A stretch of DNA of 44,983 nt from Nitrospira sp. CG24A (GTDB taxonomy: Bacteria > Nitrospirota > Nitrospiria > Nitrospirales > Nitrospiraceae), in assembly GCA_002869925.2 (NCBI GenBank), contig NEWT02000035.1, positions 1 through 44,983 on the forward strand, written 5' to 3'. The position numbers and the translations under genes were made by a program. Under the pieces are notes generated by a model. The model did not search any database. It had not been told where the DNA came from and saw only the letters and a program-made list of their open reading frames with translations. This document shows, piece after piece, positions 3,279-44,983 of this stretch; the stretch's first letter is position 1; each line of letters opens with the position of its first letter.

Positions 3279-3782
3279 CTACTGAGCGGGATGCACATGC
3301 GTATGAGCTCGGCAGACCTGAAGAAATGAGAGGTTGTTTTTCTGATCCGGAAAGCCCGACATCGGATACGCACACAACAGGGAGAAGGCGTGTTGGGATG
3401 CCAACTCATTCCCCAGTTCCTCCAGACGAATGGCCGCCCGCGTCTTTCCTTCTGCCCACAGTACCGCCGCCATTTCACCAAAAATGCGGACTGGACCTTT
3501 CAGAGAGGCCCGTTGAAGGAGGGGCCCAACCGTCGAGATGAATCGTGTCTCATTCGGCCAATCATCCACCATGAAAGTTGATAATAGCTCAACAGCATCG
3601 ATGTATGTGATCGAGGAAGTGCTTGCCGCCTGCAGGGTATTGCGGAACTCCTCACGATGTTGTGCCGTCGCTATCACGATAATTGCCCCGTTTTCCTTGA
3701 GGCCAGCTGTGATGAAAGCGGATACAGTATCAATCAGAAACACGTCATCGTTGTAAAATTGAACCGCATGGGGTGGAGTCAT
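3279..3782 (-). CDS. MEDS-domain sensor protein
   Basis: A 167-residue cytoplasmic protein that is essentially one MEDS (DcmR-type sensory) domain. It has HAVQFYNDDVFLID at the N-terminus, IVIATAQHREEF (about 35-46), the DWPNETRF segment (about 74-81), VRIFGEMAAVLWAEG (about 98-112) and the closing AFSLLCAYPM (about 132-141). The domain is a divergent RecA/KaiC-like fold found alone or fused to histidine kinases and regulators, where it is thought to sense ligands or partners. Here it is stand-alone with no kinase beside it, so any partner is encoded elsewhere. Confidence 0.8.
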   Translation of the reverse strand: MTPPHAVQFYNDDVFLIDTVSAFITAGLKENGAIIVIATAQHREEFRNTLQAASTSSITYIDAVELLSTFMVDDWPNETRFISTVGPLLQRASLKGPVRIFGEMAAVLWAEGKTRAAIRLEELGNELASQHAFSLLCAYPMSGFPDQKNNLSFLQVCRAHTHVHPAQ

Positions 3783-8437: not shown

Positions 8438-8767
8438 TTATCGCTGGTACACCACTGTGACCCTGGCAAGAAAATCGATAAGTTCGGTGATATGGCGGCG
8501 TATTGCGCTCGAGTCTTCTCGTGCTGCCGCTTGCTCCAAAGCGGTCCCCATCATACTGATGGCGTCGAAACCGTACCCGCCTCCATCCCCTCTCATCCGA
8601 TGTCCAATGATTTGAATCTGGACCAGATTATTTTCTTGCAATGCGGCTTCGAGTATCTGCACATCACGGCGACGGTTTTCTAGAAATCCCGGGATAATTT
8701 CTTCAAGCCCTTGGTCGACATACACGGTGATGATGTTGTTGGCGTTTCTGTCTGGTCCCGTCGTCAT
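8438..8767 (-). CDS. HPt domain phosphotransfer protein
   Basis: A 109-residue single-domain HPt protein. The phosphorylatable His is H56 in [13 protein letters not shown], which fits the HPt motif H..KG.....G. It is a four-helix protein that shuttles phosphoryl groups between receiver domains. Start at 8767: this ATG overlaps the stop of the hybrid kinase gene upstream by 4 nt (ATGA), so the two are translationally coupled. The long frame that runs further upstream is out-of-frame overlap with the kinase. Its most likely partners are the C-terminal receivers of the two hybrid kinases encoded just upstream. No dedicated output regulator follows it. Confidence 0.88.
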
Positions 8768-11319
8768 GATATATGCCGTCCTTTGCAAGCCCGGAGAACC
8801 TCCAGGAGGGTGTGTTTCTTGATGGGTTTCGTCAGATGCGCATCGCAGCCGGCATCGAAAATCTTCACTCCGTCCTCTTTTAGCGCCTGGGCAGTCAAGG
8901 CGATCACCTGTATGGGAAAGAGATGATGCTCCCGTTCCCATGCTCGAATGGCTCGTGTCGCCTCATAGCCATTCATCACCGGCATTTGCATATCCATCAG
9001 GATGAGATCGTAGTCGCCGGCCTTGAATCGCTCCACTGCGATGGCGCCGTGATCCGCGATATCAAGGCAATACGGAGTCTGCTTCACATAGGCACGAATG
9101 AGCATCTGATTATCTGTGGAATCTTCAGCGAGTAAGATGCGAAGCGTCTTGAGTTCAGTTGGAGTTGTGGACGCCACTGATGAGAACCCAGCCGTCTGTT
9201 GAATCCCCTTCGAACGGTCGAATGCGATGCTGATGGTCTGAATCAGATCCGATCTCCTGATAGGCTTGATTAAATAACCGCCTAGTCCCATGTCGTAGGT
9301 GCGGGCGATATCGTCGGCCCAATGACGAGAGGTCAGCATCACAATCGTCGGCCCTTGGGAAGGGTCGGCCCGTTTAATCTGTTCGGCAACGTGAAACCCA
9401 TCCATCTCCGGCATGCGACAGTCGAGAAGTACAAGCTGGTAGGGTCGCGACGACTCAGCAGCTCGCCGCCATGCTTCGATGGCATCGTGACCGGAGGCAG
9501 TATCCGTTACCTCAGCACCCAAGGCCGCCAAGGATTCGTGAAGAATCAAACGGTTGATGGCATGGTCATCGACGACAAGAGCTCTGATCCCATGAAGATC
9601 GAGCGGGATGTTGTTATGGGTTGTGGTCTGGCCGGATGGCACCGCAAGCCGCACGCAGCAATGAAAGGTGCTACCCTCTCCTAGAGTGCTCTCCACCCAG
9701 ATTCGTCCCGCCATGCGTTCTGCTAATCGCTTTGAAATGGCCAACCCTAACCCGGTGCCCCCATACATGCGCGTTGTCGAGGCGTGGGCTTGCGTAAAGC
9801 TTTCGAATATGGAGGCAAGCTTATCCGATGGAATGCCGATCCCTGTATCACTCACTGCGAATCGAATGGCGCCAAGGGAGGGGACGTCAGGATCCGGCTT
9901 CACCCACACCATGACGGACCCGCTGTCGGTGAATTTGATCGCGTTACTGATGAGATTCAAGAGGATCTGGTGGAGCCGGTGCGGGTCTCCAATCACCGCA
10001 CAGGGGACATCAGGGGAAATATGACAGGCAAGTTCGAGGCCTTTTTCATTGGCCCGCAGGGCGAGAATCTCGATGGCCTTTTCAATCAAGTCGCTTAAAT
10101 CAAATTCGGTTGATTCCAGTTCCAGATGGCCGACCTCGACTTTCGACAAGTCGAGAATATCATTGATCAGATTTAATAGATTTCCGCCGGCACGGCGGAA
10201 AATACGCAGGTATTTTCGTTGCTCTGGCACCAGATCTGTTTCCCATAAGAGATCAGCCATACCGACAATGGCATTCATGGGCGTGCGGATCTCGTGACTC
10301 ACGCTGGCAAGAAATTCGTTCTTGGCTGCACTCGCCTTTTCTGCTCGTTCCTTGGCCTGGCGGAGGGCTTTCTCCGACTCCCGACGTTCCATCGATTCCA
10401 TCGCAAGCGTCACCATCATGGCTAGTGATGTGGCAACAGTCATGTCATGGCTGGTCCATGTGCGGGGTGAGCCGAGGTGTTCATGACACAAGACACCCAC
10501 CGTCTTTCCTCTATGCCTGATCAATGCATCGAGCCTTGCGCCGCTTCCAAATGGCGTGAGATACGATGATGAATGTTCACGGGTACGTGAATCTACGTGG
10601 GCGTCGAGGGCCGCACGCGTCTGTTCTTCCCGATCCAACGCCTGAAGATACGACGGGAATTGGTCGGCCTGGAGAACAGCTCCAGCACTGTGCTGACAGG
10701 TGGAAGCCTCATACAGATCCTGCATCTGGACGGTTGAGCGATCTTCATGGAATAGCCAGATACTGGCGCGCTCGACCGCCAACACACGGCTCGCTGTCTC
10801 GGTGATAGCCTGAGCCGCAAGGTGAAGTTCTCCTGAGATAATCGCCTTGTTCTGAGTCAATTCGAGCAACCCGTCCTGATACTCCTCGAGCAAACTGGCG
10901 CGCCGGATTTCTTGTCCGGCAATTCGCTCATTGAGGTCCGTCATCAGCCGCTTCCGCTCGACGGCTGTACAGAGAGCACGGCAGATCGCTCCCCCATCGT
11001 ATGGCCTCTTCAACAGATAATCCTGCGCTCCGCTCTGAACGGCTAACGTCGCAAGAGGTTCGGCATTCGGATCTGTGAAAAGCACGACCGGAAGCTCCGG
11101 CGCCCGCGCGTGCACGCGTGCGAGCGTGTCGAGGCCAGCGCTGTCTGGCAGGTTAAGGTCCAGGAATATGGCATCGAACTGCCTGACGGCTAGGTAAGAA
11201 AGCGCGACTGACAGCCGATCCGCATGCTCAACCAGAATGGGAGGATTCCTGAAATTAAGGAGTGCCTCTCGCAGCAGAGCCATCTCCTGCGGGTTATCCT
11301 GGATGGCGAGGACAATCAT
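8764..11319 (-). CDS. Hybrid histidine kinase, REC-GAF-HisKA-HATPase-REC-REC
   Basis: An 851-residue soluble hybrid kinase. Receiver 1 covers about 1-125 with D54 in [10 protein letters not shown] coiled stretch follows, then a GAF domain (about 165-310). HisKA has H342 in [10 protein letters not shown]. The ATPase domain has the N box SNAIKFTD (458-465), G1 DTGIGI (491-496) and G2 [10 protein letters not shown]. Receiver 2 has D633 ([10 protein letters not shown]) and receiver 3 has D776 (ILMDMQMP). All phosphosites are intact. AAGGAGA lies 9 nt before the ATG. It sits 46 nt after the related kinase gene and overlaps the HPt gene by 4 nt. The N-terminal receiver suggests that it takes input from another phosphodonor instead of a membrane ligand. 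Confidence 0.93.
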
Positions 11320-11365: not shown

Positions 11366-14300
11366 TCACGGCTTCAGGGAGTTAACCCCTCCCGTATGGC
11401 TGAGAATGGCTTCCAGCAAGGCAGCTTTCTTGATGGGTTTGGCCAAGACGCCATTGCATCCGACGGCTTTGATTCGTCGCTTGTCTTCAGGGTACGCGTA
11501 CGCCGTCAACGCAAGAATCGGAGTCGGCGGAATGCCCTGTTTCATTTCCCATTCCCTGATGGTCGCAGTCGTGGTATAGCCATCCATCACCGGCATATGG
11601 ATGTCCATCAGAACCAGATCGTAGCGGCCGACGGTCACCATGTCACAAGCAATGCGACCATTTTCCGCGATGTCCACCTTGTACGGCGTCGCTTTCAGGT
11701 AGGCCTTGACCAAGAGCTGGTTATCCGTCGAATCCTCCACCACGAGAATTCTTAGCGCTCGGTGATCCACCAATGCCACGGGTGCCTCAACCTGCCTTGG
11801 CAACGGAGACAACCCTTGCGTTCGTCTATGAGCGATCGCAAGTGCGCGGCGGAGCTCGGACCGCTTAATGGGTTTCTCCAAATATCCGGCCAAACCCAGA
11901 TCATAGGTGCGAGCCACCTCACCGGACCGGTGGGTGGACCCGCCAAAGTCCGATGTGAGCATCAAGATGGCCAAGTCTTGTAGGGACGGATCCGCTCGAA
12001 TCCGTTCGGCAACCTCGAATCCGTTGAGATCGGGCATACGGGAGTCGAGCAGCACAAAGTCATATGACTCACCGGCCTCGCGCGCCCGTTTCAGTTCAGT
12101 CAACGCGGTCAGACCGTCCGGCGCTTCCCCCGCCTGCATGGCCCAGGCGGTCAGAGCCTCCCGAGCGATGAGTCGGTTCGTCGCATTATCATCGACAACC
12201 AGCACGCGAAGTGCATTCAAATCCGCGAGGGCGGAAGGTGGAGCCTCCGGGGTCTCCAGCTCGACGTCGAATCGCAGTGCGCACGAGATGGTGCTTCCAT
12301 GGCCAACTCGACTCTCAGCCCAGATGCGGCCGCCCATCAGGATGGCGAATTGCTTGCTGATAGCGAGACCCAGACCCGTTCCGCCGTATTTGCGCGCAGT
12401 AGACACATGCGCCTGCGTGAAGCTTTCGAAAATCGATTCCAGCTTATCCGGAGGAATGCCGATTCCGGTATCTGTGACAGAGAACAGCAGCGCGCCCGGT
12501 TCTGAGACCTCGGGATTCGGCACCACACGCAATTCGATGGAGCCCTGGTCGGTGAATTTGATGGCATTACCGACCAGATTCACCAGAATCTGCTGGAGAC
12601 GGGTTGGATCACCATAGAGGAATCGAGGGACCGCAGGGGATACGTAGCACGTCGGCTCTATGTTCTTATCTCGCGCCCGCAAGGCCAGTAGGTCGATCAC
12701 ATTGTCAATCACGTCCTGCAGATCGAAGCGGATCCGTTCTAGCTCAATGTGCTTCGCTTCCACCTTGGAGAGATCGAGAATATCGTTCAACAGGGTCATG
12801 AGGTTCTGGCCCGCATTTCGGAAGATACGGACATATTTACCCTGTTCGTCGGTGAGAGAAGTCTCCCCCAGCAAATCAGCCATTCCGACTATCGCATTCA
12901 TCGGCGTGCGGATCTCATGACTCATGTTGGCCAGAAACTCGCTCTTGGCCCTGGTGGCTGTCTCAGCCGCGTCTTTCGCCTGGAGCAAGGCTTCCTGAAT
13001 TCGCTTCCGCTCCGTAATCACTTCCGTGAATATGATGATCCCGCCGATGACGCCGTGTTCGTCATGCCAGGGACGCACTTCCCAGCGCAGCCAGTCGGTG
13101 CTACCGTTTGCGCGCACGAAAAGATCCTCTTCCCGCCGCTCAATCGCACCGGCCAGGCATCGTTGATAGATATCCTGCCATTTCCTCATGTCACGAATTT
13201 CAGGAAACACGTCATAATGATATTGCCCGATGATATCCCGTTCGCCAAGCTGGTAATCCTGATACCAGCGCTGACTGACAGCCACATACCGAATCTGCTG
13301 GTCTAGCATCGCAACAGCGACCGGTGCGTGTTCAACAAAGGATAGGAACAGCGACCGGCTGTGTTCAAGTGACTGCACGACTCGCGTGCGCTCCTGCTCC
13401 GCCGCAATGCGCGAGGCAAACGCCTGCAAAATCGGGATCGCCAACTTCCCGTCCGGCATCGGCTTGTTGTCCATGAGGGCGATATGCCCAATCACCTGCC
13501 CTGTCCTGTCCGTAACTGGTACCCCACAATAGCTAACAACCCCTAAGTCGGCGATCATGCGGACATGGGGATAGATGGCGTGAAGTTGATCCGGATGGTA
13601 GACGGCCTGCCCTGTTAACACTGCCTCGCAAGGACTGCCCATCGGCACCACAAACGGCTCGATGAAAGCGCCTGCCCTCCATGCGGCGATGGACCGAAAA
13701 TACGTGCCTTCAGCATTTCTCTCAGAAAAATAGGCGAACTGGACATTGAACGCCGCTGCCATGCGACGGACCAAGGAGGAGAAAAAGTCCTCCCCTGTCT
13801 GTGTCGCGACCCCTTCGACCACAGCCAGCAGCGCGTCCTCTCGCTTTTTTCGTTCAGTGATGTCATTGGTCACGGCTAACTGTTCGGTGCACCCGGTGAC
13901 AGGGTTTCTCAAGGGCACGGCCTGAGTCTCCATCCACCGGCTGGAGCCCTTGAGACCATGAATTTTAAACTGGACTGTTCGCTCGTGACCAGCTATCACG
14001 TCGTCATGCATACTCACGAATGCGGCGCGATCCTCAGGGGCCACCAGGTCGAACATTGAAAGGCCGATCGCATCCTGCTCGTTGCACGCTTCAATGAATC
14101 GTAGTCCGACAGGATTTATTTGCAGCAATGTTCCATCGGAAGCAACGCGGGTGATGCCGCTAGGTCCGGTGCTCAACATAATCATGTTGAGCAATTCCTG
14201 CTCCCCCCGTTTCTTAGCTACGTGCTTGAATGCGGTCACGTCTTCGCAGGCAATGAGCGCGACTGGAGTGTCTACGCCACGCGCTATTCGAACGGTCTCA

Positions 14301-15064
14301 CTGACCCAGGTCGTCGTTCCATCCTTCTTCACCATCCTGAATGTCCACCAGGCGGTGCTGGAGGGATGGCCGAACGCTTCAGCCAACTTTCTGACGACCG
14401 CATCCCTGTCCTCTTCATAAAAGACCGACAAGATAGAACGCCCGATTAGCTCTTCCAGTGTGTATCCCAACTGTGTCGCACCAAAACTGTTGGTGGAGAG
14501 CACCGTGCCTTGTTGATTCACAGTGAAATGCATGAACGGAGTTTCGTCATAGAGGGCACGGAACCGTTCTTCACTGTCGCGCACGGTCTCTTCCATGCGC
14601 TTCAGGTCCATCCTGTCGCGTAGGAGAGATTGATGGGCAGCCGCGAGCTCAGCCGTACGGTCGGCAGCGCGCGCCTCGAGATCCGTCAGCAACCGTTTCC
14701 GTTCAATGGCAGTGCACAGGGAGCGGGAAAGTAGCCCTCCGTCGTACCCCCCCTTCACGACGTAGTCCTGAGCTCCGGCTCGGATTCCGTCCATCGCCAG
14801 CCGTTCGTCATCCATGCCCGCCATAATCACCACCGGAATCCCCGGCGCCGACGCTTGCACACGTGCGAGCGTATTGAGGCCGGTGCTATCGGGCAGGTTG
14901 AGATTCAAAATAATCGCGTCAAAACGCCCCGCAGCTAGACAGGTAGATGCAGCTGACAGCTGATCCACATGCACCACCCGAATGGGGACGTTCGTGACAG
15001 CAGAAAGGGCTGTTCGCAGCAGGATCATCTCCTCCCGGCTGTCCTCAATGACAAGGATGATCAT
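11366..15064 (-). CDS. Hybrid histidine kinase, REC-PAS-PAS-GAF-PAS-HisKA-HATPase-REC-REC
   Basis: A 1232-residue soluble kinase. Its N-terminal receiver (1-125) is paralogous to that of the next gene, but residue 54 is Asn (ILNLNLPD), so it should not be phosphorylated. PAS domains lie at about 165-280 and 290-405. A GAF domain (about 415-565) contains [11 protein letters not shown] and SYCGVPV, and a third PAS is at about 570-690. HisKA has H716 ([10 protein letters not shown]). The N box is GNAIKFTD, G1 is DTGIGI and G2 is [11 protein letters not shown]-terminal receivers carry D1007 (LLDSRMPD) and D1154 (LMDIHMP). No membrane segments are seen. The start lacks a strong ribosome site. It probably arose by duplication with its neighbour and then diverged in the sensor part. 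Confidence 0.93.
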
Positions 15065-20181: not shown

Positions 20182-20583
20182 ATGCTGAGGAAAGAAGACC
20201 GGTTCAAAGAGTTTCGCTCCTGGTACCGCAAGATTCCCGCGCCGCAATTGAAATCGGTGTTTGAGGGGTTGTGGCAGACGAGTTTCTTTACCCACTCGGA
20301 ACTGATTGAGATGGCGTCGGATACCTTACGTGTCATGGATCGTGCGGTGGATGTCGAGGGAGGCGAGGTTCCGGAAACAGAAAATAAAGTCATGCTGATG
20401 CCGGGATTTCCCTGCCCGCTGTGCCGGTTCCCGACTTATTCGTGGGTCGAGGATATGGGCAACAAGCTCGAGTCCTATGTGCTCGATTTCATCCGTGAGA
20501 ATCACCCTGGCTGGGACATCGAGTTCGGGGCCTGCGATCGTTGTGTCGAGGTCTATAAGCTGCGTGCCGATGGTGTTATGTAA
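20182..20583 (+). CDS. NXR-cluster Cys-rich hypothetical protein
   Basis: A 133-residue soluble protein with two CxxC pairs, FPCPLCRFPTY (about residues 76-86) and GACDRCVEVY (about 117-126). They probably bind one metal ion in a rubredoxin- or zinc-ribbon-like way. In Nitrospira a protein of this kind accompanies nitrite-oxidoreductase genes, between nxrB and the ferredoxin (from memory of such loci). The ATG at 20182 is preceded by TAAGG. The reading frame is open upstream to a stop at 20158, inside the truncated MFS copy, so the true N-terminus and promoter may have been lost at the junction. The next gene starts 13 nt after the stop. Confidence 0.7.
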   Translation: MLRKEDRFKEFRSWYRKIPAPQLKSVFEGLWQTSFFTHSELIEMASDTLRVMDRAVDVEGGEVPETENKVMLMPGFPCPLCRFPTYSWVEDMGNKLESYVLDFIRENHPGWDIEFGACDRCVEVYKLRADGVM

Positions 20584-20596
20584 CGGGGGCATCATT

Positions 20597-21196
20597 GTGG
20601 CCACCGATCCGATCTATGGGCGTCGCGACTTCCTCAAAGACTCTGTGGTGTCCGTTGCCAAAGCGGCACAAGAGTTTTCCAAACACCAACATGCTGCACC
20701 GGAACAACCGGCTCCACCCCCGGTGCGAATCGATTGGCTGCGCCCGCCAGGCGCGGCTGACGAAGCGTTATTTTTAGAGCGATGCACTCAATGCGGTGAC
20801 TGTGCCAAGGTCTGTCCGTACGGGTCGATTTCCTTTCATCCGCAGAACGGGACCCCGATAATTTTTGCCGATCAGATGCCGTGCTATCTCTGTGAGGACG
20901 TGCCCTGTATTACGGCCTGTGCGACTGAAGCGTTGCTTCCGGTCGAAGGGCCAGAGCAGATACGAATGGGCCTCGCAGTGGTGTCGCACCGTGTCTGCAC
21001 GGCAGGGCAAGGCTGCCATGCCTGTGCATCGAAATGTCCCACGGATGCCTTATCGATGGACTTTGATCAACAGCGTCTTGTGGTGAAAGCTGAACATTGC
21101 GTGGGATGCGGGTTGTGTGAACAGGTGTGCCGGACCGTGAACGATCGCGTGGCCATTCGGGTTACACCCGTGAGATTATTGGCGTCAGCGCATTGA
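20597..21196 (+). CDS. Tat-type ferredoxin with four Fe-S cluster motifs (NapG/MauM-like)
   Basis: Start set at GTG 20597 (CGGGGG 7 nt upstream), giving 199 residues and placing the twin-arginine motif GRRDFLK at residues 8-14. Four cysteine clusters follow: CTQCGDCAKVCP, CYLCEDVPCITACA, CTAGQGCHACASKCP and CVGCGLCEQVCRTV, the layout of NapG/MauM-type polyferredoxins. The N-terminal hydrophobic stretch is weak, so export, or simply proof-reading by Tat, remains uncertain. It would pass electrons between haem and molybdopterin subunits of a nitrite-oxidoreductase-type complex. It lies 13 nt after the Cys-rich gene and is probably co-transcribed. Confidence 0.85.
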   Translation: MATDPIYGRRDFLKDSVVSVAKAAQEFSKHQHAAPEQPAPPPVRIDWLRPPGAADEALFLERCTQCGDCAKVCPYGSISFHPQNGTPIIFADQMPCYLCEDVPCITACATEALLPVEGPEQIRMGLAVVSHRVCTAGQGCHACASKCPTDALSMDFDQQRLVVKAEHCVGCGLCEQVCRTVNDRVAIRVTPVRLLASAH

Positions 21197-21428: not shown

Positions 21429-22394
21429 ATGACGAGTAAGCAGCCTGTACAAACACATTCTCAGGCCGGGGTCATCCCGGCGTCGCCAGCCTTGAAAGAT
21501 TCACCCGCAGTCGAACGTGCGCTTAATCGCAGTAAGCTCTATCTCCTGGTGTCGTGGAGTCAGTTGTATCCGGAGGATGAAGAGTTTCTCGATTACGTGC
21601 AATGTGGAGAGTTTATTGAGGATGGACGAGCGGCGCTCGATACCTTAGATGCGACGCTTGACGGCATCGGCGGCGAGAGGGCCAAGCTTAAATTGGTATT
21701 GCTGCGTAAACAGTTCGATCAGATTGAGAAAGTGATCGCGTCGGAATGTGTCAACTGGCAACTGACCGATCTACAAGCCGAGCATCGCCGAGTCTTCAGT
21801 AACGTCATCACGCTCGATTGTCCTCCTTACGAAACCCTATTCGGAAACGACCACGTATTCGCACAATCGCAAGTGATGGGTGATATCGCCGGGTTCTATC
21901 GTGCGTTCGGTGTGGAGTTATCTAAAGATATCCATGAGCGACTGGATCATTTGAGCGTCGAATTCGAGTTTATGCATTTTCTGGCCTACAAAGAATCGTA
22001 TTCCCGCTGCCACGATGGAGCAGACAAGACACAGATTGTCCTGGACGCGCAGAAAAAATTTGTCAAGAATCATATCGGTCGATGGGTCCCGCTGTTTTGC
22101 CGGATGTTGGTCAAGAAAGCCGGGTCAGGGTTTTACAAACACGTGGCGGACTTGATGGCGGAATGGATGGATTTTGAAGTGGCGTTCCTCGGCGTCGCGC
22201 CTCAGCCCTACTCAGAGACCGATTATCGTCCGGCGACGTTCAATTCGCCGGAAGGCCAGACCTATGAGTGTGGTGCGCAGGATCAGGGGAACGAGCTGAG
22301 TCTGTTGTTGAACGAAGTTGGAGCAGAGTCGTTCTTGGACAAGAAGGATCAAGGCAAAGACAAAGAGGGAGAGGGGCCAGTCGGTACGGCCTAA
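21429..22394 (+). CDS. TorD/NarJ-family molybdoenzyme chaperone
   Basis: A 321-residue cytoplasmic protein. After a disordered N-terminus (1-30) comes the all-helical TorD fold: SKLYLLVSWSQLYPEDEEFL (about 35-54), LTDLQAEHRRVFSN (about 111-124), DCPPYETLFG (the conserved P.Y.t....G region), QVMGDIAGFYRAFGVEL and DHLSVEFEFMHFLAYKE. This is the pattern of chaperones that hold the catalytic subunit of DMSO-reductase-type enzymes until the Mo cofactor is inserted. The protein is longer than typical TorD (about 200) owing to N- and C-terminal extensions. In this block it presumably serves NxrA, which is not encoded in the window. Confidence 0.85.
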   Translation: MTSKQPVQTHSQAGVIPASPALKDSPAVERALNRSKLYLLVSWSQLYPEDEEFLDYVQCGEFIEDGRAALDTLDATLDGIGGERAKLKLVLLRKQFDQIEKVIASECVNWQLTDLQAEHRRVFSNVITLDCPPYETLFGNDHVFAQSQVMGDIAGFYRAFGVELSKDIHERLDHLSVEFEFMHFLAYKESYSRCHDGADKTQIVLDAQKKFVKNHIGRWVPLFCRMLVKKAGSGFYKHVADLMAEWMDFEVAFLGVAPQPYSETDYRPATFNSPEGQTYECGAQDQGNELSLLLNEVGAESFLDKKDQGKDKEGEGPVGTA

Positions 22395-22489
22395 CCCACG
22401 TATCAGTTCAATCGACCCTCGTATTGTGTTATATGATGACGATTTTTGGGCCGCCGCTCTTTATTTTTCATTAAGAAGAGGCGTATTCT

Positions 22490-22609
22490 ATGAAAACAGA
22501 AGAGAAGCCAAAGCCTCAAAGCAACCGTTTAAGAATTGGTCTTCTGGTTGTGTCGGTGATCGTGGGCGTACTGTTAGCCATTTTCTCTATGATGAATGAT
22601 CCGCGTTAA
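22490..22609 (+). CDS. 39-residue single-span membrane protein in NXR block
   Basis: ATG at 22490 with AAGAAGAGG 8 nt upstream, TAA at 22607-22609. The product is a charged N-terminus (MKTEEKPKPQSNRLRIG), one hydrophobic span (LLVVSVIVGVLLAIFSMM) and a four-residue tail. By the positive-inside rule the N-terminus faces the cytoplasm. It lies 95 nt after the chaperone gene and 52 nt before nxrC, all on the same strand. No family is recognised. Its position suggests a small anchoring or accessory subunit of the nitrite-oxidoreductase complex, which is inference. Confidence 0.6.
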   Translation: MKTEEKPKPQSNRLRIGLLVVSVIVGVLLAIFSMMNDPR

Positions 22610-22661
22610 TCGTCGGCCTGACATTGAGCAGTCTTTTTTTACTTGAGAGGAGGGGTATCCT

Positions 22662-23612
22662 ATGAGTGTAGTGCAGACACACAGTAAGGGTGTGGTGCTC
22701 GGCATTCTTCTCTCTGCGTTGATCGTGGGCGTCATGCTGACGATTGGGCAGGTTCCGTTGGCTGTCAGCCAGCCGGTCACCATTCCGGCGAAGATGGTCA
22801 AGGGTGCGATTCCGATGGATGGCGCCAACCCGGTATGGGAGGGCGTGCCTGGGGTGATCGTGCCATTGAGCGGTCAGTTGATCACCACGCCGATGCACCC
22901 GAATATTTCGGTCAAGTCGGTGTTCGTGAAAGCCATGACGAACGGCAAAGAGATGGGTCTTCGTATCGAATGGCAGGATCAGACCAAGAACGATACCACC
23001 ATCGGTCCCCAGGATTTCAGGGATCAGGCGGCGGTTATGTTCCCGGTCAACACGGCTGGCGCGCCACCATTCCAGTGCATGGGTCAGTCAGGCGGTACGA
23101 CCAACATCTGGCGGTGGAACGCCGAGTGGCAGAAGGATATCGGCAAAGATAGCGCAGGTATCTGGGACGTTGACGACCAATACCCAGGCATTTTCTGGGA
23201 CTATTATTTCGAAGAGCCGGCGGGCGGCGTGACCTATCCTGACCGGATCGGCCGAAGCCTCGGGCCCTTCAATCCTGGCATCTGGTCTGGCAACATCATG
23301 TCTGATCCGACGTTGCGTGTGAGCTCGGTTGAGGATCTGAACGCCAATGGGTTCAGCACCCTCACCACGCAAGCACATCAAGATGTCATCGGAAACGGTG
23401 TGTGGGAACCTGCCGGTTCCATCAAGGGCGGTGGATACAACGGTCCAACGTGGCGCGTGGTCGTGAAGCGCACCTTGGAAACCGGCGATGCCAACGATAC
23501 CCAATTCAAAGCGGGAATGTCTGTACCTATCGCGTTTGCGGTATGGGATGGGAACAACATCGAGCGTAACGGCATGAAGGCGCTCTCCACCTGGTTTACT
23601 CTGAAGCTGTAG
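22662..23612 (+). CDS. nxrC: Nitrite oxidoreductase gamma subunit (haem b-binding), NxrC-like
   Basis: A 316-residue exported protein with a strong GAGAGGAGG before the ATG. The N-terminal signal (GVVLGILLSALIVGVML) is followed by IPAKMVKGAIPMDGANPVWE. The rest matches the gamma subunit of type II DMSO-reductase enzymes (ethylbenzene-dehydrogenase-like haem-binding fold): RIEWQDQTKNDTT, DQAAVMFPVN, TNIWRWNAEWQKD, the acidic DVDDQYPG segment and VVKRTLE near the end. Such subunits carry one haem b and pass electrons from the catalytic unit. In Nitrospira NxrC is on the periplasmic side with NxrA and NxrB. No nxrA or nxrB is present here. A terminator follows. Confidence 0.85.
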   Translation: MSVVQTHSKGVVLGILLSALIVGVMLTIGQVPLAVSQPVTIPAKMVKGAIPMDGANPVWEGVPGVIVPLSGQLITTPMHPNISVKSVFVKAMTNGKEMGLRIEWQDQTKNDTTIGPQDFRDQAAVMFPVNTAGAPPFQCMGQSGGTTNIWRWNAEWQKDIGKDSAGIWDVDDQYPGIFWDYYFEEPAGGVTYPDRIGRSLGPFNPGIWSGNIMSDPTLRVSSVEDLNANGFSTLTTQAHQDVIGNGVWEPAGSIKGGGYNGPTWRVVVKRTLETGDANDTQFKAGMSVPIAFAVWDGNNIERNGMKALSTWFTLKL

Positions 23613-23676
23613 TCGTAAGGACGTTGGTCATGAGAGGCTGACGCCCTCTAGAGTTCAGAGCGATACACAGCGAAAG

Positions 23677-23715
23677 CCCCAGTTCGGCGTCAAGCCGGGC
23701 TGGGGTTTCTTATTT
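23677..23715 (+). terminator. Rho-independent terminator after nxrC
   Basis: CCCCAG (23677-23682) pairs with CTGGGG (23700-23705), and an inner CGGC pairs with GCCG. A T-rich run TTTCTTATTT follows. It lies 65 nt after the nxrC stop and closes the NXR unit. Confidence 0.75.
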
Positions 23716-39042: not shown

Positions 39043-40785
39043 CTATTGCAGCGGTGGTACCACTTCGTCCAACGGGGGCACCACATCGGTCGGCGAGGGT
39101 TCCACCTCGTCCAACGAGGGCACCGCATCAGTCGGCGGGGCCAGCACCGCGTCCAGCGGCGGCACCACGCCGGCAAAGGTCAACAGATCGGTGATGCGAA
39201 AATCACCTCGTCTCGCAGCGGGCAGCACCGGTTTCCATCTTGGTTGAGCGGACAGATAGGATGTCTCATCGGCTTTCAGCAGGCCGATAAACACTTCACC
39301 GACGATGCGGCCCCCCACCGGTCCTAAGCGGAGACCATTCTCCATGAGCTCCGCCTCTTTCCAAATGTAAAACAAGAGCGGCGTGCTTTTCTCCATGTCA
39401 AAGGGTTTGAGCATATCCAGCTGTGCGGGGGTCAATGCTGGAACCCCCATCCTCTTCGCAATCGCCTGGCCGGACGGCATCCCGACATTGACGTGGCGCA
39501 TCAGACTGCGTGAGGGCAACGATTGTACTCCGTCGGCAGGCAGGCCCGGAGCAGACCCACGTGAACCTGGAAGCAACATCAGCACGCTGGAAAGCTTGCC
39601 GTCAATCTGTTTGTTGGGTCGGAAATTGCCATCGCCGAAATTGAAGAAGGTTTGCCAGTCGACAAACCGACGCGGTGCGCGTTTCCCTCCACGCATATCG
39701 TCTGGATCCGGGTTGTTGGGGTCTTGCGTATCGTCGAAGAGAAAGGCGAAGACCGGGGATCCGCCAGTGGGGCCGAAGTTCAGACGATAGCTCGGACGAA
39801 TTTGCGAATGACCGAAGCGGTAGGCGGCCACTGAAAACTCGATGGGGATCAACGGATCCTTTGAACGTCTGGCGCGCCGACCGTCTGGACCTTCGTCTAC
39901 CTGGTAGAATCGGGGCCCCTTGTTGAGGATGTCAGCGACGCGTGCCTGCCCAATCGTCAGCGGCAGGAACTCATGCACGATGATCCACTGATAGTGCCAG
40001 CGGACCTGGCGTTGGGCCAACTTGAAGATCTGCTCAGCCGATTGAGTCGCGCTCGCGGGGTCCTTGCGTAAGTGGTCGACGACCGCGTTATGAAAACGCA
40101 GGAATGCCGTGTGAAGCTGAGCAAGGATCACGTGTTCATCGTTCCGGCTGTCGCCGAGAATGGCGGCATTGTTTGGGTCACGCGGGAGGTCAAAACGGGG
40201 CGCTCCATTGCGAGAGACGGCCTCTGCGCCTGGAATAGTCTCGACCTTCAGCTTGATCTCGCCGGAACTCAGGTCATACAACTCCGGGGAGCCTTGAGGC
40301 CCATTGCCGTACACGCTGTCAAGATCGAATGCAGCGGTGCGGAAGTTCGTCGTTTTCTTGGGGTTGCTTGGTTCGAGCAACGGGGATCTTGGGTCGAGCG
40401 TGATATCGTGGTCCAGGAACTGACCCAGGAAGGTTACGCCAGCCGTCATGTTGGGATTGTCGGGATTGTTTGGACTGAATACCGCGGGATTCGTGATGGA
40501 TTGAATCGGATCGGTCAGGTTATCCAACGCGTCGATGACGCCTCCTTTTTCGCCCAGCTTTTTGGCCTGGGTACGTGCCTCATCGGTCGGCGGGGCGTAG
40601 GGGGGTAAATCAGGAAACATGCGCGTAAAGGTATTGTTCGGAGTCTGAGGCCGTTCCCGCAAGCCGGGAAGGTTTAAATTGTTTTTTCCGCCAGCAGGTT
40701 GAGCCATGGTGAGACCAACTAGTGCGGTAGAACACAGCATTCCTGCTAGACCGGCCGATAGATATTTTTTGCCACGACGCGACAT
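39043..40785 (-). CDS. Exported animal-type haem peroxidase with repetitive Pro-rich tail
   Basis: A 580-residue protein with AAAGGAG before the ATG and an export signal (MSRRGKKYLSAGLAGMLCST onward). The peroxidase domain has the distal-His/Ca segment GQFLDHDIT with H126, the AQLHTAFLRFHN helix (about 222-232) and the proximal-His segment YRFGHSQIRP with H326. These are the landmarks of animal-type (myeloperoxidase/peroxicin) haem peroxidases. The mature start TPNNTFTRMFPDLPP is typical of the bacterial peroxicins. The tail (about 540-580) is repeats of LDEV and PTDVVPP, encoded by 42-nt tandem repeats. It would use H2O2 to oxidise halides or organic substrates outside the cytoplasm. Confidence 0.9.
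   Translation of the reverse strand: MSRRGKKYLSAGLAGMLCSTALVGLTMAQPAGGKNNLNLPGLRERPQTPNNTFTRMFPDLPPYAPPTDEARTQAKKLGEKGGVIDALDNLTDPIQSITNPAVFSPNNPDNPNMTAGVTFLGQFLDHDITLDPRSPLLEPSNPKKTTNFRTAAFDLDSVYGNGPQGSPELYDLSSGEIKLKVETIPGAEAVSRNGAPRFDLPRDPNNAAILGDSRNDEHVILAQLHTAFLRFHNAVVDHLRKDPASATQSAEQIFKLAQRQVRWHYQWIIVHEFLPLTIGQARVADILNKGPRFYQVDEGPDGRRARRSKDPLIPIEFSVAAYRFGHSQIRPSYRLNFGPTGGSPVFAFLFDDTQDPNNPDPDDMRGGKRAPRRFVDWQTFFNFGDGNFRPNKQIDGKLSSVLMLLPGSRGSAPGLPADGVQSLPSRSLMRHVNVGMPSGQAIAKRMGVPALTPAQLDMLKPFDMEKSTPLLFYIWKEAELMENGLRLGPVGGRIVGEVFIGLLKADETSYLSAQPRWKPVLPAARRGDFRITDLLTFAGVVPPLDAVLAPPTDAVPSLDEVEPSPTDVVPPLDEVVPPLQ
39056..39172. repeat. 42-nt tandem repeat in peroxidase gene
   Basis: About 2.7 units of 42 nt (39056-39097, 39098-39139, 39140-39172), each encoding 14 residues of the pattern LDEV..PTDVVPP on the minus strand. 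The units differ at about 15-25% of positions, and the last one is most diverged. The repeat stays in frame. Confidence 0.65.
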
Positions 40786-44200: not shown

Positions 44201-44983
44201 ATGGCGAGTACAACCACATGGGGGGCTAGCGACAAGAGCGGCTATGACATGTCGCTCTGGTACGATTCCAGGCCCCTCAAGATCGGCTGGTTTGCAATGT
44301 TGGGGGCGGTCGGCGCCGAAGTCGTCTTTCAGCGCGTCTTCGGGTATTCCCATGGGCTGGACTCCATGACGCCGGAGTTCGAGACCGTCTGGATGGGCCT
44401 GTGGCGGTTTAACGTGATTTCCAACATCATCTTCTCGGCGGCGACGCTCGGGTGGATCTGGCAAACGCGCGATCGCAATATCGCCAATGTGGATCCCAAG
44501 ACCGAGCTGAAGCGGTACTTCTACTGGATGATGTGGCTGGCGATCTATGTGTTCGGGGTCTATTGGGCCGGCAGTTATACGCTGGAGCAGGATGCGTCGT
44601 GGCATCAGGTGATCATCCGGGATACGAGCTTCACCGCGAGCCATATCATTGCGTTCTACTTCACGTTCCCGCTGTACATTACGTGCGGCGTGTCGAGCTA
44701 TCTGTATGCGATGACGCGGTTGCCGCAGTTCAGCAAGGCGGTGTCGTTCCCGTTGGTGGGGGCGATCGTGGGGCCGATGATGATTCTCCCGAACGTGGGC
44801 CTCAACGAGTGGGGGCATGCATTCTGGTTCGTCGATGAACTCTTTGCGGCCCCGTTGCACTGGGGCTTTGTGACCTTGGGCTGGTGCGGGTTGTTTGGCG
44901 GGACGGGCGGCGTGGCGGCACAGATTGTGGCGCGCATGTCGAACCTGTGCGATGTGGTCTGGAACAACGAGAGCAAGGACTGC
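44201..44983 (+). CDS. amoC: Ammonia monooxygenase subunit C, 3' end cut by window edge
   Basis: ATG at 44201 with AAGGAGGT 6 nt upstream. 261 residues are present and the family is about 270, so only about ten residues are missing. The start [40 protein letters not shown] and [20 protein letters not shown] are AmoC hallmarks. D131, H135 and H148 have the spacing (4 and 13) of the CuC copper ligands of PmoC/AmoC. Six hydrophobic spans are visible. It lies in the membrane with AmoA and AmoB and is needed to oxidise ammonia to hydroxylamine. Whether amoA follows cannot be seen; comammox Nitrospira often have extra solitary amoC copies as well. Confidence 0.95.

Follow-up and report, generated by a model that had tools for sequence, protein, structure and literature searches.

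A small membrane protein gene beside nxrC in clade B comammox Nitrospira and its descent from the nxrC 5′ end

Introduction

Small membrane proteins are known companions of bacterial respiratory enzymes. TorE forms complexes with TorC and strengthens TorC anchoring, and both TorE and NapE strengthen the membrane anchoring and multimerisation of their partners (PMC6134056). CydX-type subunits of respiratory oxidases are likewise very small single-span proteins encoded beside a respiratory gene. New bacterial proteins can arise by overprinting, in which a stretch of an existing gene is read in another frame (PMC4683798). In Nitrospira, nxrC_2 ranks with the most strongly transcribed genes of N. 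moscoviensis, and NxrC_2 is predicted to be soluble, yet NXR is reported to be membrane-associated (PMC6606698).

Here, we analysed a small open reading frame (ORF) between a TorD-like chaperone gene and nxrC in a 44,983-nt stretch of Nitrospira DNA (hereafter the window). The frame resembles TorE and NapE in that its product is small, has one membrane helix and is encoded beside a TorD-type chaperone and a molybdoenzyme part in 16 genomes. In contrast to TorE and NapE, it has a separate origin, its partner would be NxrC or NXR, and its neighbour nxrC does not encode a NapC-type cytochrome. The NapE profile PF06796 gave no match at E<=1 in the 16 members and none anywhere in the genome, and homology to NapE or TorE was rejected on this basis. 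The likeness would be an analogy in action, not one of descent. The similarity to CydX-type subunits in size, span and position is not accompanied by homology in any family search or by an oxidase partner in the gene group. Known small-protein families (Pfam, NCBIfam) were rejected as well, as they gave only sub-threshold matches to unrelated membrane segments.

The direct parent is instead the N-terminal signal sequence of NxrC itself (EB_dh/DMSO reductase type II gamma), with which the leader, the ribosome site and the first ~25 codons are homologous in DNA. Compared with NxrC, the small protein lacks the EB_dh domain and the signal-peptidase region, carries a new out-of-frame tail and is predicted to be an uncleaved anchor. 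The gene is of a known kind, a small membrane protein by a respiratory enzyme, and its family and origin are new; its function can be proposed from its descent and setting. We found no description of the frame in the open-licence literature searched, and it is apparently an undescribed, lineage-specific microprotein gene.

Results and discussion

The small ORF runs on the + strand from an ATG at 22490 to a TAA ending at 22609 and encodes the 39-aa product MKTEEKPKPQSNRLRIGLLVVSVIVGVLLAIFSMMNDPR. Its ribosome-binding site AAGAAGAGG (22473–22481, + strand) is located 8 nt upstream of the ATG. A Lys/Glu/Pro-rich N-tail containing MKTEEKPKPQSNR is followed by a single membrane span and a short C-tail. 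The hydrophobic span comprises residues 16–34 (mean Kyte-Doolittle 2.83), and AlphaFold2, with the family alignment as input, predicted a single helix from residue 10 to 36 (mean pLDDT 81). The good ribosome site and the one clean membrane span claimed in a first-pass annotation of this DNA were thus confirmed. Its further statement that the frame falls below the length limits of gene calling is doubtful, since the default minimum gene length of Prodigal is 90 nt and the frame measures 120 nt.

Upstream of the small ORF lies the gene for a 321-aa TorD-like NXR chaperone (21429–22394, + strand; PF02613, E 6.1e-21), which also matches TIGR03482 (DMSO reductase II chaperone) with an E of 6.2e-22, below the model cut-off. 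It is preceded on its 5′ side by a gene for a 4Fe-4S ferredoxin-type protein (20477–21196, + strand; PF12838, E 1.8e-15). Downstream follows the gene for a 316-aa nxrC-type gamma subunit with an EB_dh domain (22662–23612, + strand; PF09459, E 9.8e-28), whose match to TIGR03477 (E 2.1e-41) is likewise below the model cut-off. The 'NXR block' of the first-pass annotation therefore holds for nxrC and the TorD-like chaperone and for nothing more: neither nxrA nor nxrB is present within the window. Contig C19 encodes a NarH/type II DMSO reductase beta-like protein of 429 aa, which we read as NxrB, preceded by an NxrA-like C-terminal piece. This agrees with the finding that Nitrospira nxrC candidates are sited away from nxrAB (PMC6606698). 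As for the wider surroundings, two large adjoining hybrid histidine kinases (GAF/PAS, three receiver domains each; window 8764–11319 and 11366–15064) are encoded upstream of the nxrC group, and a cytochrome P450 (31126–32568) and an animal-type haem peroxidase (39043–40785) downstream of nxrC.

In 16 Nitrospira genomes of one genus, the gap that separates the TorD-like gene from nxrC holds a homologous frame. The homologues have 35–44 residues, with identity to the window protein down to 30%. Start, ribosome site, an N-in charge pattern and the span are kept, and G17, G26 and V27 are invariant. The refuting condition named in the first-pass annotation, a lack of conservation of frame, start or span in related NXR loci, was thus not borne out in the carriers. 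The ribosome site is of the GAGGAGG type in 14 of the 16 relatives and of a weaker GAAAGA type in loci L013 and L014. The named carriers are metagenome-assembled genomes; the frame was found in 16 separate assemblies with a consistent junction. One sub-branch of carriers, formed by L013 and L014 (genomes G030 and G005) together with L011 and L016, is evolving fast. Its members have IIIASV(V/L)FGVAWA or ILIASLIFGVAWA as the span sequence and ILIGKN/D as the tail; in G030 the small ORF has a GTG start and a weak ribosome site.

Among seven independent sister pairs, 51.7 synonymous changes per 193.7 sites and 54.3 non-synonymous changes per 610.3 sites were counted, which corresponds to a dN/dS of 0.29 (Fisher p 1.4e-9). 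Five close pairs gave a dN/dS of 0.15 (p 1.2e-11). The span is the most constrained part (0.21, versus 0.32 for the head and 0.58 for the tail). While the synonymous rate of the small ORF (0.33) is close to that of its neighbours (0.29), the ORF is less constrained than nxrC (dN/dS 0.03) or torD (0.06). The conserved start, ribosome site and frame and the excess of synonymous change show that the small ORF codes for protein and is kept by purifying selection. The overlooked membrane protein gene of the first-pass annotation is genuine: 16 genomes share the frame at this position, it is under selection and it encodes one span.

A functionless, decaying duplication scar whose frame is open by chance would agree with the restriction to one lineage, with an evolution faster than that of the neighbours, and with one basal pair (G014–G006) in which the dN/dS is about 1.1, a value that perhaps reflects an early relaxed or adaptive phase. 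However, when neutral evolution was simulated on the carrier tree at the synonymous rate of the neighbours, all 16 frames were open in 0 of 3000 runs (mean 3.3 open), and at a quarter of that rate in 41 of 3000. Given in addition a dN/dS of 0.15–0.29 and the retained start and ribosome site, we consider a scar very unlikely. Instead of a protein, the frame might also mark a conserved RNA element that acts in cis within the nxrC leader, since it is located in the leader of a gene with a very highly expressed homologue and the duplicated leader is conserved. But changes cluster at synonymous sites and lengths differ in steps of whole codons, a signature of coding DNA that leaves very little probability for an RNA element.

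The origin of the gene can be read from its surroundings. Gaps between torD and nxrC that hold no such frame measure 61–100 nt (all cases measured), versus 246–279 nt in carriers. In all 16 genomes, the small ORF and its leader align to the nxrC leader and 5′ coding region of the same genome (z 4.0–31.4 over shuffles, with the maximum in L010). In the window, this first tandem copy (22458–22582, + strand) matches 22632–22745 with z 10.7. It contains 33–34 nt of leader including the ribosome site and about 25 nxrC signal-peptide codons; the hydrophobic signal core of nxrC, codons 10–28, is the source of the small gene. The second copy of the 33-nt leader (22629–22661, + strand) carries the nxrC ribosome site GAGAGGAGG (22645–22653) and matches the end of the leader in G008, the ORF-free sister of the carriers, at 29/32 to 30/32 positions in the basal carrier loci L010, L012 and L015 and at 26/29 in the window. 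In turn, the leader of the small ORF (22395–22489, + strand) corresponds to the ancestral torD–nxrC leader, the presumed nxrC control region: 58 of 77 positions in the window are identical to the G008 leader, and 84/93 and 83/92 in the basal carriers L012, L015 and L010.

When the 160-nt gene DNA of the basal carrier G006 was searched against its own genome, only the nxrC 5′ end was found besides the query itself (80% identity at E 7e-21, the next best match having an E of 0.26). In that genome, the copies directly adjoin each other (contig positions 3590/3589). In the gene-free genomes G008 and G018, the same DNA matched the nxrC leader and 5′ end (83%, E 9e-24 and 7e-24). A protein profile of the small-protein family was applied to 175 genomes of the taxonomic family. 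In about 60 genomes other than the carriers it matched the N-terminus of NxrC, these matches being recognised by their range and an open frame of 314–484 aa. Beyond the 16 genes and NxrC N-termini, no match at E 0.001 was obtained in the 175 genomes. A 46-aa open frame in G179 was rejected as a small gene, because the match runs to the contig end and represents a cut-off nxrC. The small protein and NxrC share the ancestry of their N-termini, and the homology is limited to the signal region: a Pfam search of the small protein gave no match, with the EB_dh/gamma-subunit domain absent. These comparisons show that the small gene was born by tandem duplication of the nxrC leader and first ~25 codons. 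This origin, like the restriction to clade B comammox described below, is absent from the first-pass annotation.

A nested, frame-shifted copy of nxrC codons ~10–26 (22568–22628, + strand) supplies the tail, the stop codon and the spacer; it covers the last ~14 codons of the small ORF and the spacer up to the second leader. Worn in the window, it is clear in L009, L010, L012 and L015, where it ends at nxrC nucleotide 78–79. Scores in the slow basal lineages reach 52–60 against a null of 16–18, with a 38-nt ungapped match in L015. The copy is also worn in several faster lineages, and in L006, L013 and L016 it does not exceed the null. The nested DNA encodes ...LALFSILSPH, and its TTGATC provides the stop. 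Because of a one-base offset at the joint, the nested copy is out of frame, so that the product consists of the in-frame NxrC signal core and an overprinted tail, with the cleavage region lost. The C-terminal end of the span, like the tail and the stop, was supplied by this nested out-of-frame duplication. The copies are read directly; the order of the duplication steps is reconstructed and should be taken as probable. As in overprinted genes (PMC4683798), the tail arises from reading in another frame; unlike in those genes, a duplicated copy was used, the parent is intact and most of the span is an in-frame copy. Bacterial gene birth is unusually legible in this case: the parent gene, its two copies, the old leader and the tail in its shifted frame are all still recognisable.

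The arrangement also bears on expression. Since the duplicated leader is only ~33 nt long, whatever control sequence lies farther 5′ now comes ahead of the small ORF. A sequence scan of the + strand found no terminator-like site between the TorD-like gene and nxrC, and a terminator-like hairpin after nxrC (23674–23708, + strand). A sigma-70-like promoter was not found in the leader. Taken together, the leader layout, the gap free of terminator-like sites and the hairpin after nxrC make the small ORF the likely first cistron on the nxrC transcript. Its stop precedes the nxrC start by 49–52 nt in the carriers.

Such a position raises the question of whether translation itself is what counts. A leader cistron could act through its nascent anchor, which would recruit SRP/Sec and bring the nxrC message to the membrane, or it could tune nxrC translation. 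The predicted place 5′ of nxrC on one message, 49–52 nt ahead of it and with the leader and signal core of nxrC, fits this idea, and so does the greater variability of head and tail compared to the span (dN/dS 0.32 and 0.58 versus 0.21). On the other hand, nxrC retains its own full, strong ribosome site, the gap is long for translational coupling, and the maintained charge pattern and small-residue face of the helix suggest that the product matters. We therefore regard a pure leader cistron as improbable.

The face in question, [S/G]xxxGVxx[A/G], is found in 16/16 small proteins, while NxrC of the same genome has AxxxGVxxT. Its last small residue derives from the nested copy and not from a point change. 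Small-residue faces allow helices to pack; against reading much into this one, small-xxx-G motifs are common in membrane helices. The extra Lys/Arg before the span and the missing cleavage region point to an uncleaved N-in anchor. We propose that the product is an uncleaved signal anchor with N-in/C-out topology, in which the NxrC signal core is kept and the cleavage region lost. Its conserved face would pack on another helix, which could belong to a second molecule of the small protein, to the signal peptide of NxrC while this is exported, or to a membrane protein close to NXR. This packing might aid the export, assembly or membrane attachment of NxrC or NXR where ammonia and nitrite oxidation run together, and the action would resemble that by which TorE and NapE steady their cytochromes in the membrane.

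The first-pass annotation had suggested a small subunit or assembly factor of NXR, and the descent from nxrC and the co-location with it are compatible with such a role, which may be taken as a candidate function. We take help to NXR at the membrane, as read from sequence and setting, to be the likeliest role. Several observations count against it: the periplasmic tail of 3–6 residues is too short to grip a soluble protein alone, constraint is weaker than on nxrC or torD, with a dN/dS of about 1.1 in the basal pair G014–G006, and most NXR-bearing Nitrospira lack the small gene, which is therefore not essential to NXR. Our best explanation as a whole, a clade B gene derived from nxrC and expressed as the first cistron of its message, whose product is an anchor aiding NxrC or NXR at the membrane, is accordingly tentative, and we give it slightly less than an even chance. 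For NXR membrane attachment in Nitrospira, a small protein made from the membrane-inserting segment of NxrC is nevertheless a concrete and testable candidate.

A further reading is a small membrane-active peptide of the type I toxin type. Weak, sub-threshold matches to the Fst model were obtained for 6/16 members (best E 0.0052). But the window protein scored 11.4 bits versus a cut-off of 26, and descent from the NxrC signal core accounts for the hydrophobic similarity, so that a toxin-like peptide is exceedingly improbable.

Turning to distribution, the carriers are monophyletic in the torD+nxrC tree (ultrafast bootstrap 98), with the ORF-free G008 as sister. Loss instead of gain was rejected on three grounds: outgroups lack the ORF, the carriers form a single clade, and the small ORF is led by a sequence that matches the nxrC leader of the outgroups. 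The small gene thus arose in a single event, in the ancestor of the clade B comammox Nitrospira. The clade B identity of the carriers rests on genome names, which include 'Rifle clade B' (L040), and on the pattern of amo genes. At the torD–nxrC gap, the small ORF is absent from the clade A loci L062 (Rifle clade A) and L083, from N. moscoviensis (L058) and from N. defluvii (L099). Since the gene is missing from the majority of Nitrospira, namely clade A comammox, N. moscoviensis, N. defluvii and canonical members of the same genus, it is not a general part of NXR, and a general NXR subunit was rejected, most Nitrospira torD–nxrC gaps being frameless and 61–100 nt long.

The junction is assembled in 28 genomes of the genus; among these, the ORF was present in 16/16 with any amo gene and in 0/12 without amoA and amoC. 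Of the carriers, 12/16 have amoA; amoB or amoC was found in G006, G023, G026 and G031. The comammox genomes G015, G017, G028 and G029 were rejected as truly lacking the gene, because their junction is not assembled; in G015, G017 and G029 the family profile does not even find the start of nxrC. In G028 (RSF11; L033:5896–5995), the torD–nxrC junction is a run of N with unrelated sequence before it, likely a scaffolding join at the duplicated leader. GTDB places comammox clades A and B in separate genera, both also with non-comammox species (PMC12342949), and the genus of the carriers mixes comammox and non-comammox members here, too. As a marker, the small ORF in the torD–nxrC gap told clade B comammox apart from the canonical species of their genus wherever the junction was assembled.

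The exact match with amo within the genus (16/16 versus 0/12) could mean that the gene inherited nxrC expression and serves another target in clade B, such as ammonia monooxygenase, inner membranes or the respiratory chain. However, the match goes back to one event on one branch and therefore shows shared ancestry, not function; the coincidence is indistinguishable from that with any other clade B trait. Clade A comammox, moreover, lack the gene, and its position next to nxrC is constant in all 16 carriers. We thus think another target improbable as well. To return to an anchor acting on NxrC or NXR, its boldest version, that the signal peptide of a central respiratory subunit turned into a free-standing membrane microprotein which assists the protein it came from, in NxrC export or in NXR anchoring, and did so as the lineage became a complete ammonia oxidiser, as a new NXR part private to clade B, is conceivable, though we hold it rather unlikely.

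In the window, amoC begins at 44201 and runs to the window end at 44983, continuing to C29:45058, and amoA is located at C29:45191–46087. The amo genes thus share a contig with nxrC and are separated from it by about 21 kb; among relatives, this separation varies, with 82 kb in G007 and about 216 kb in G025. In G000, a second amoC copy was found apart from the amo cluster (C40:79319–80044).
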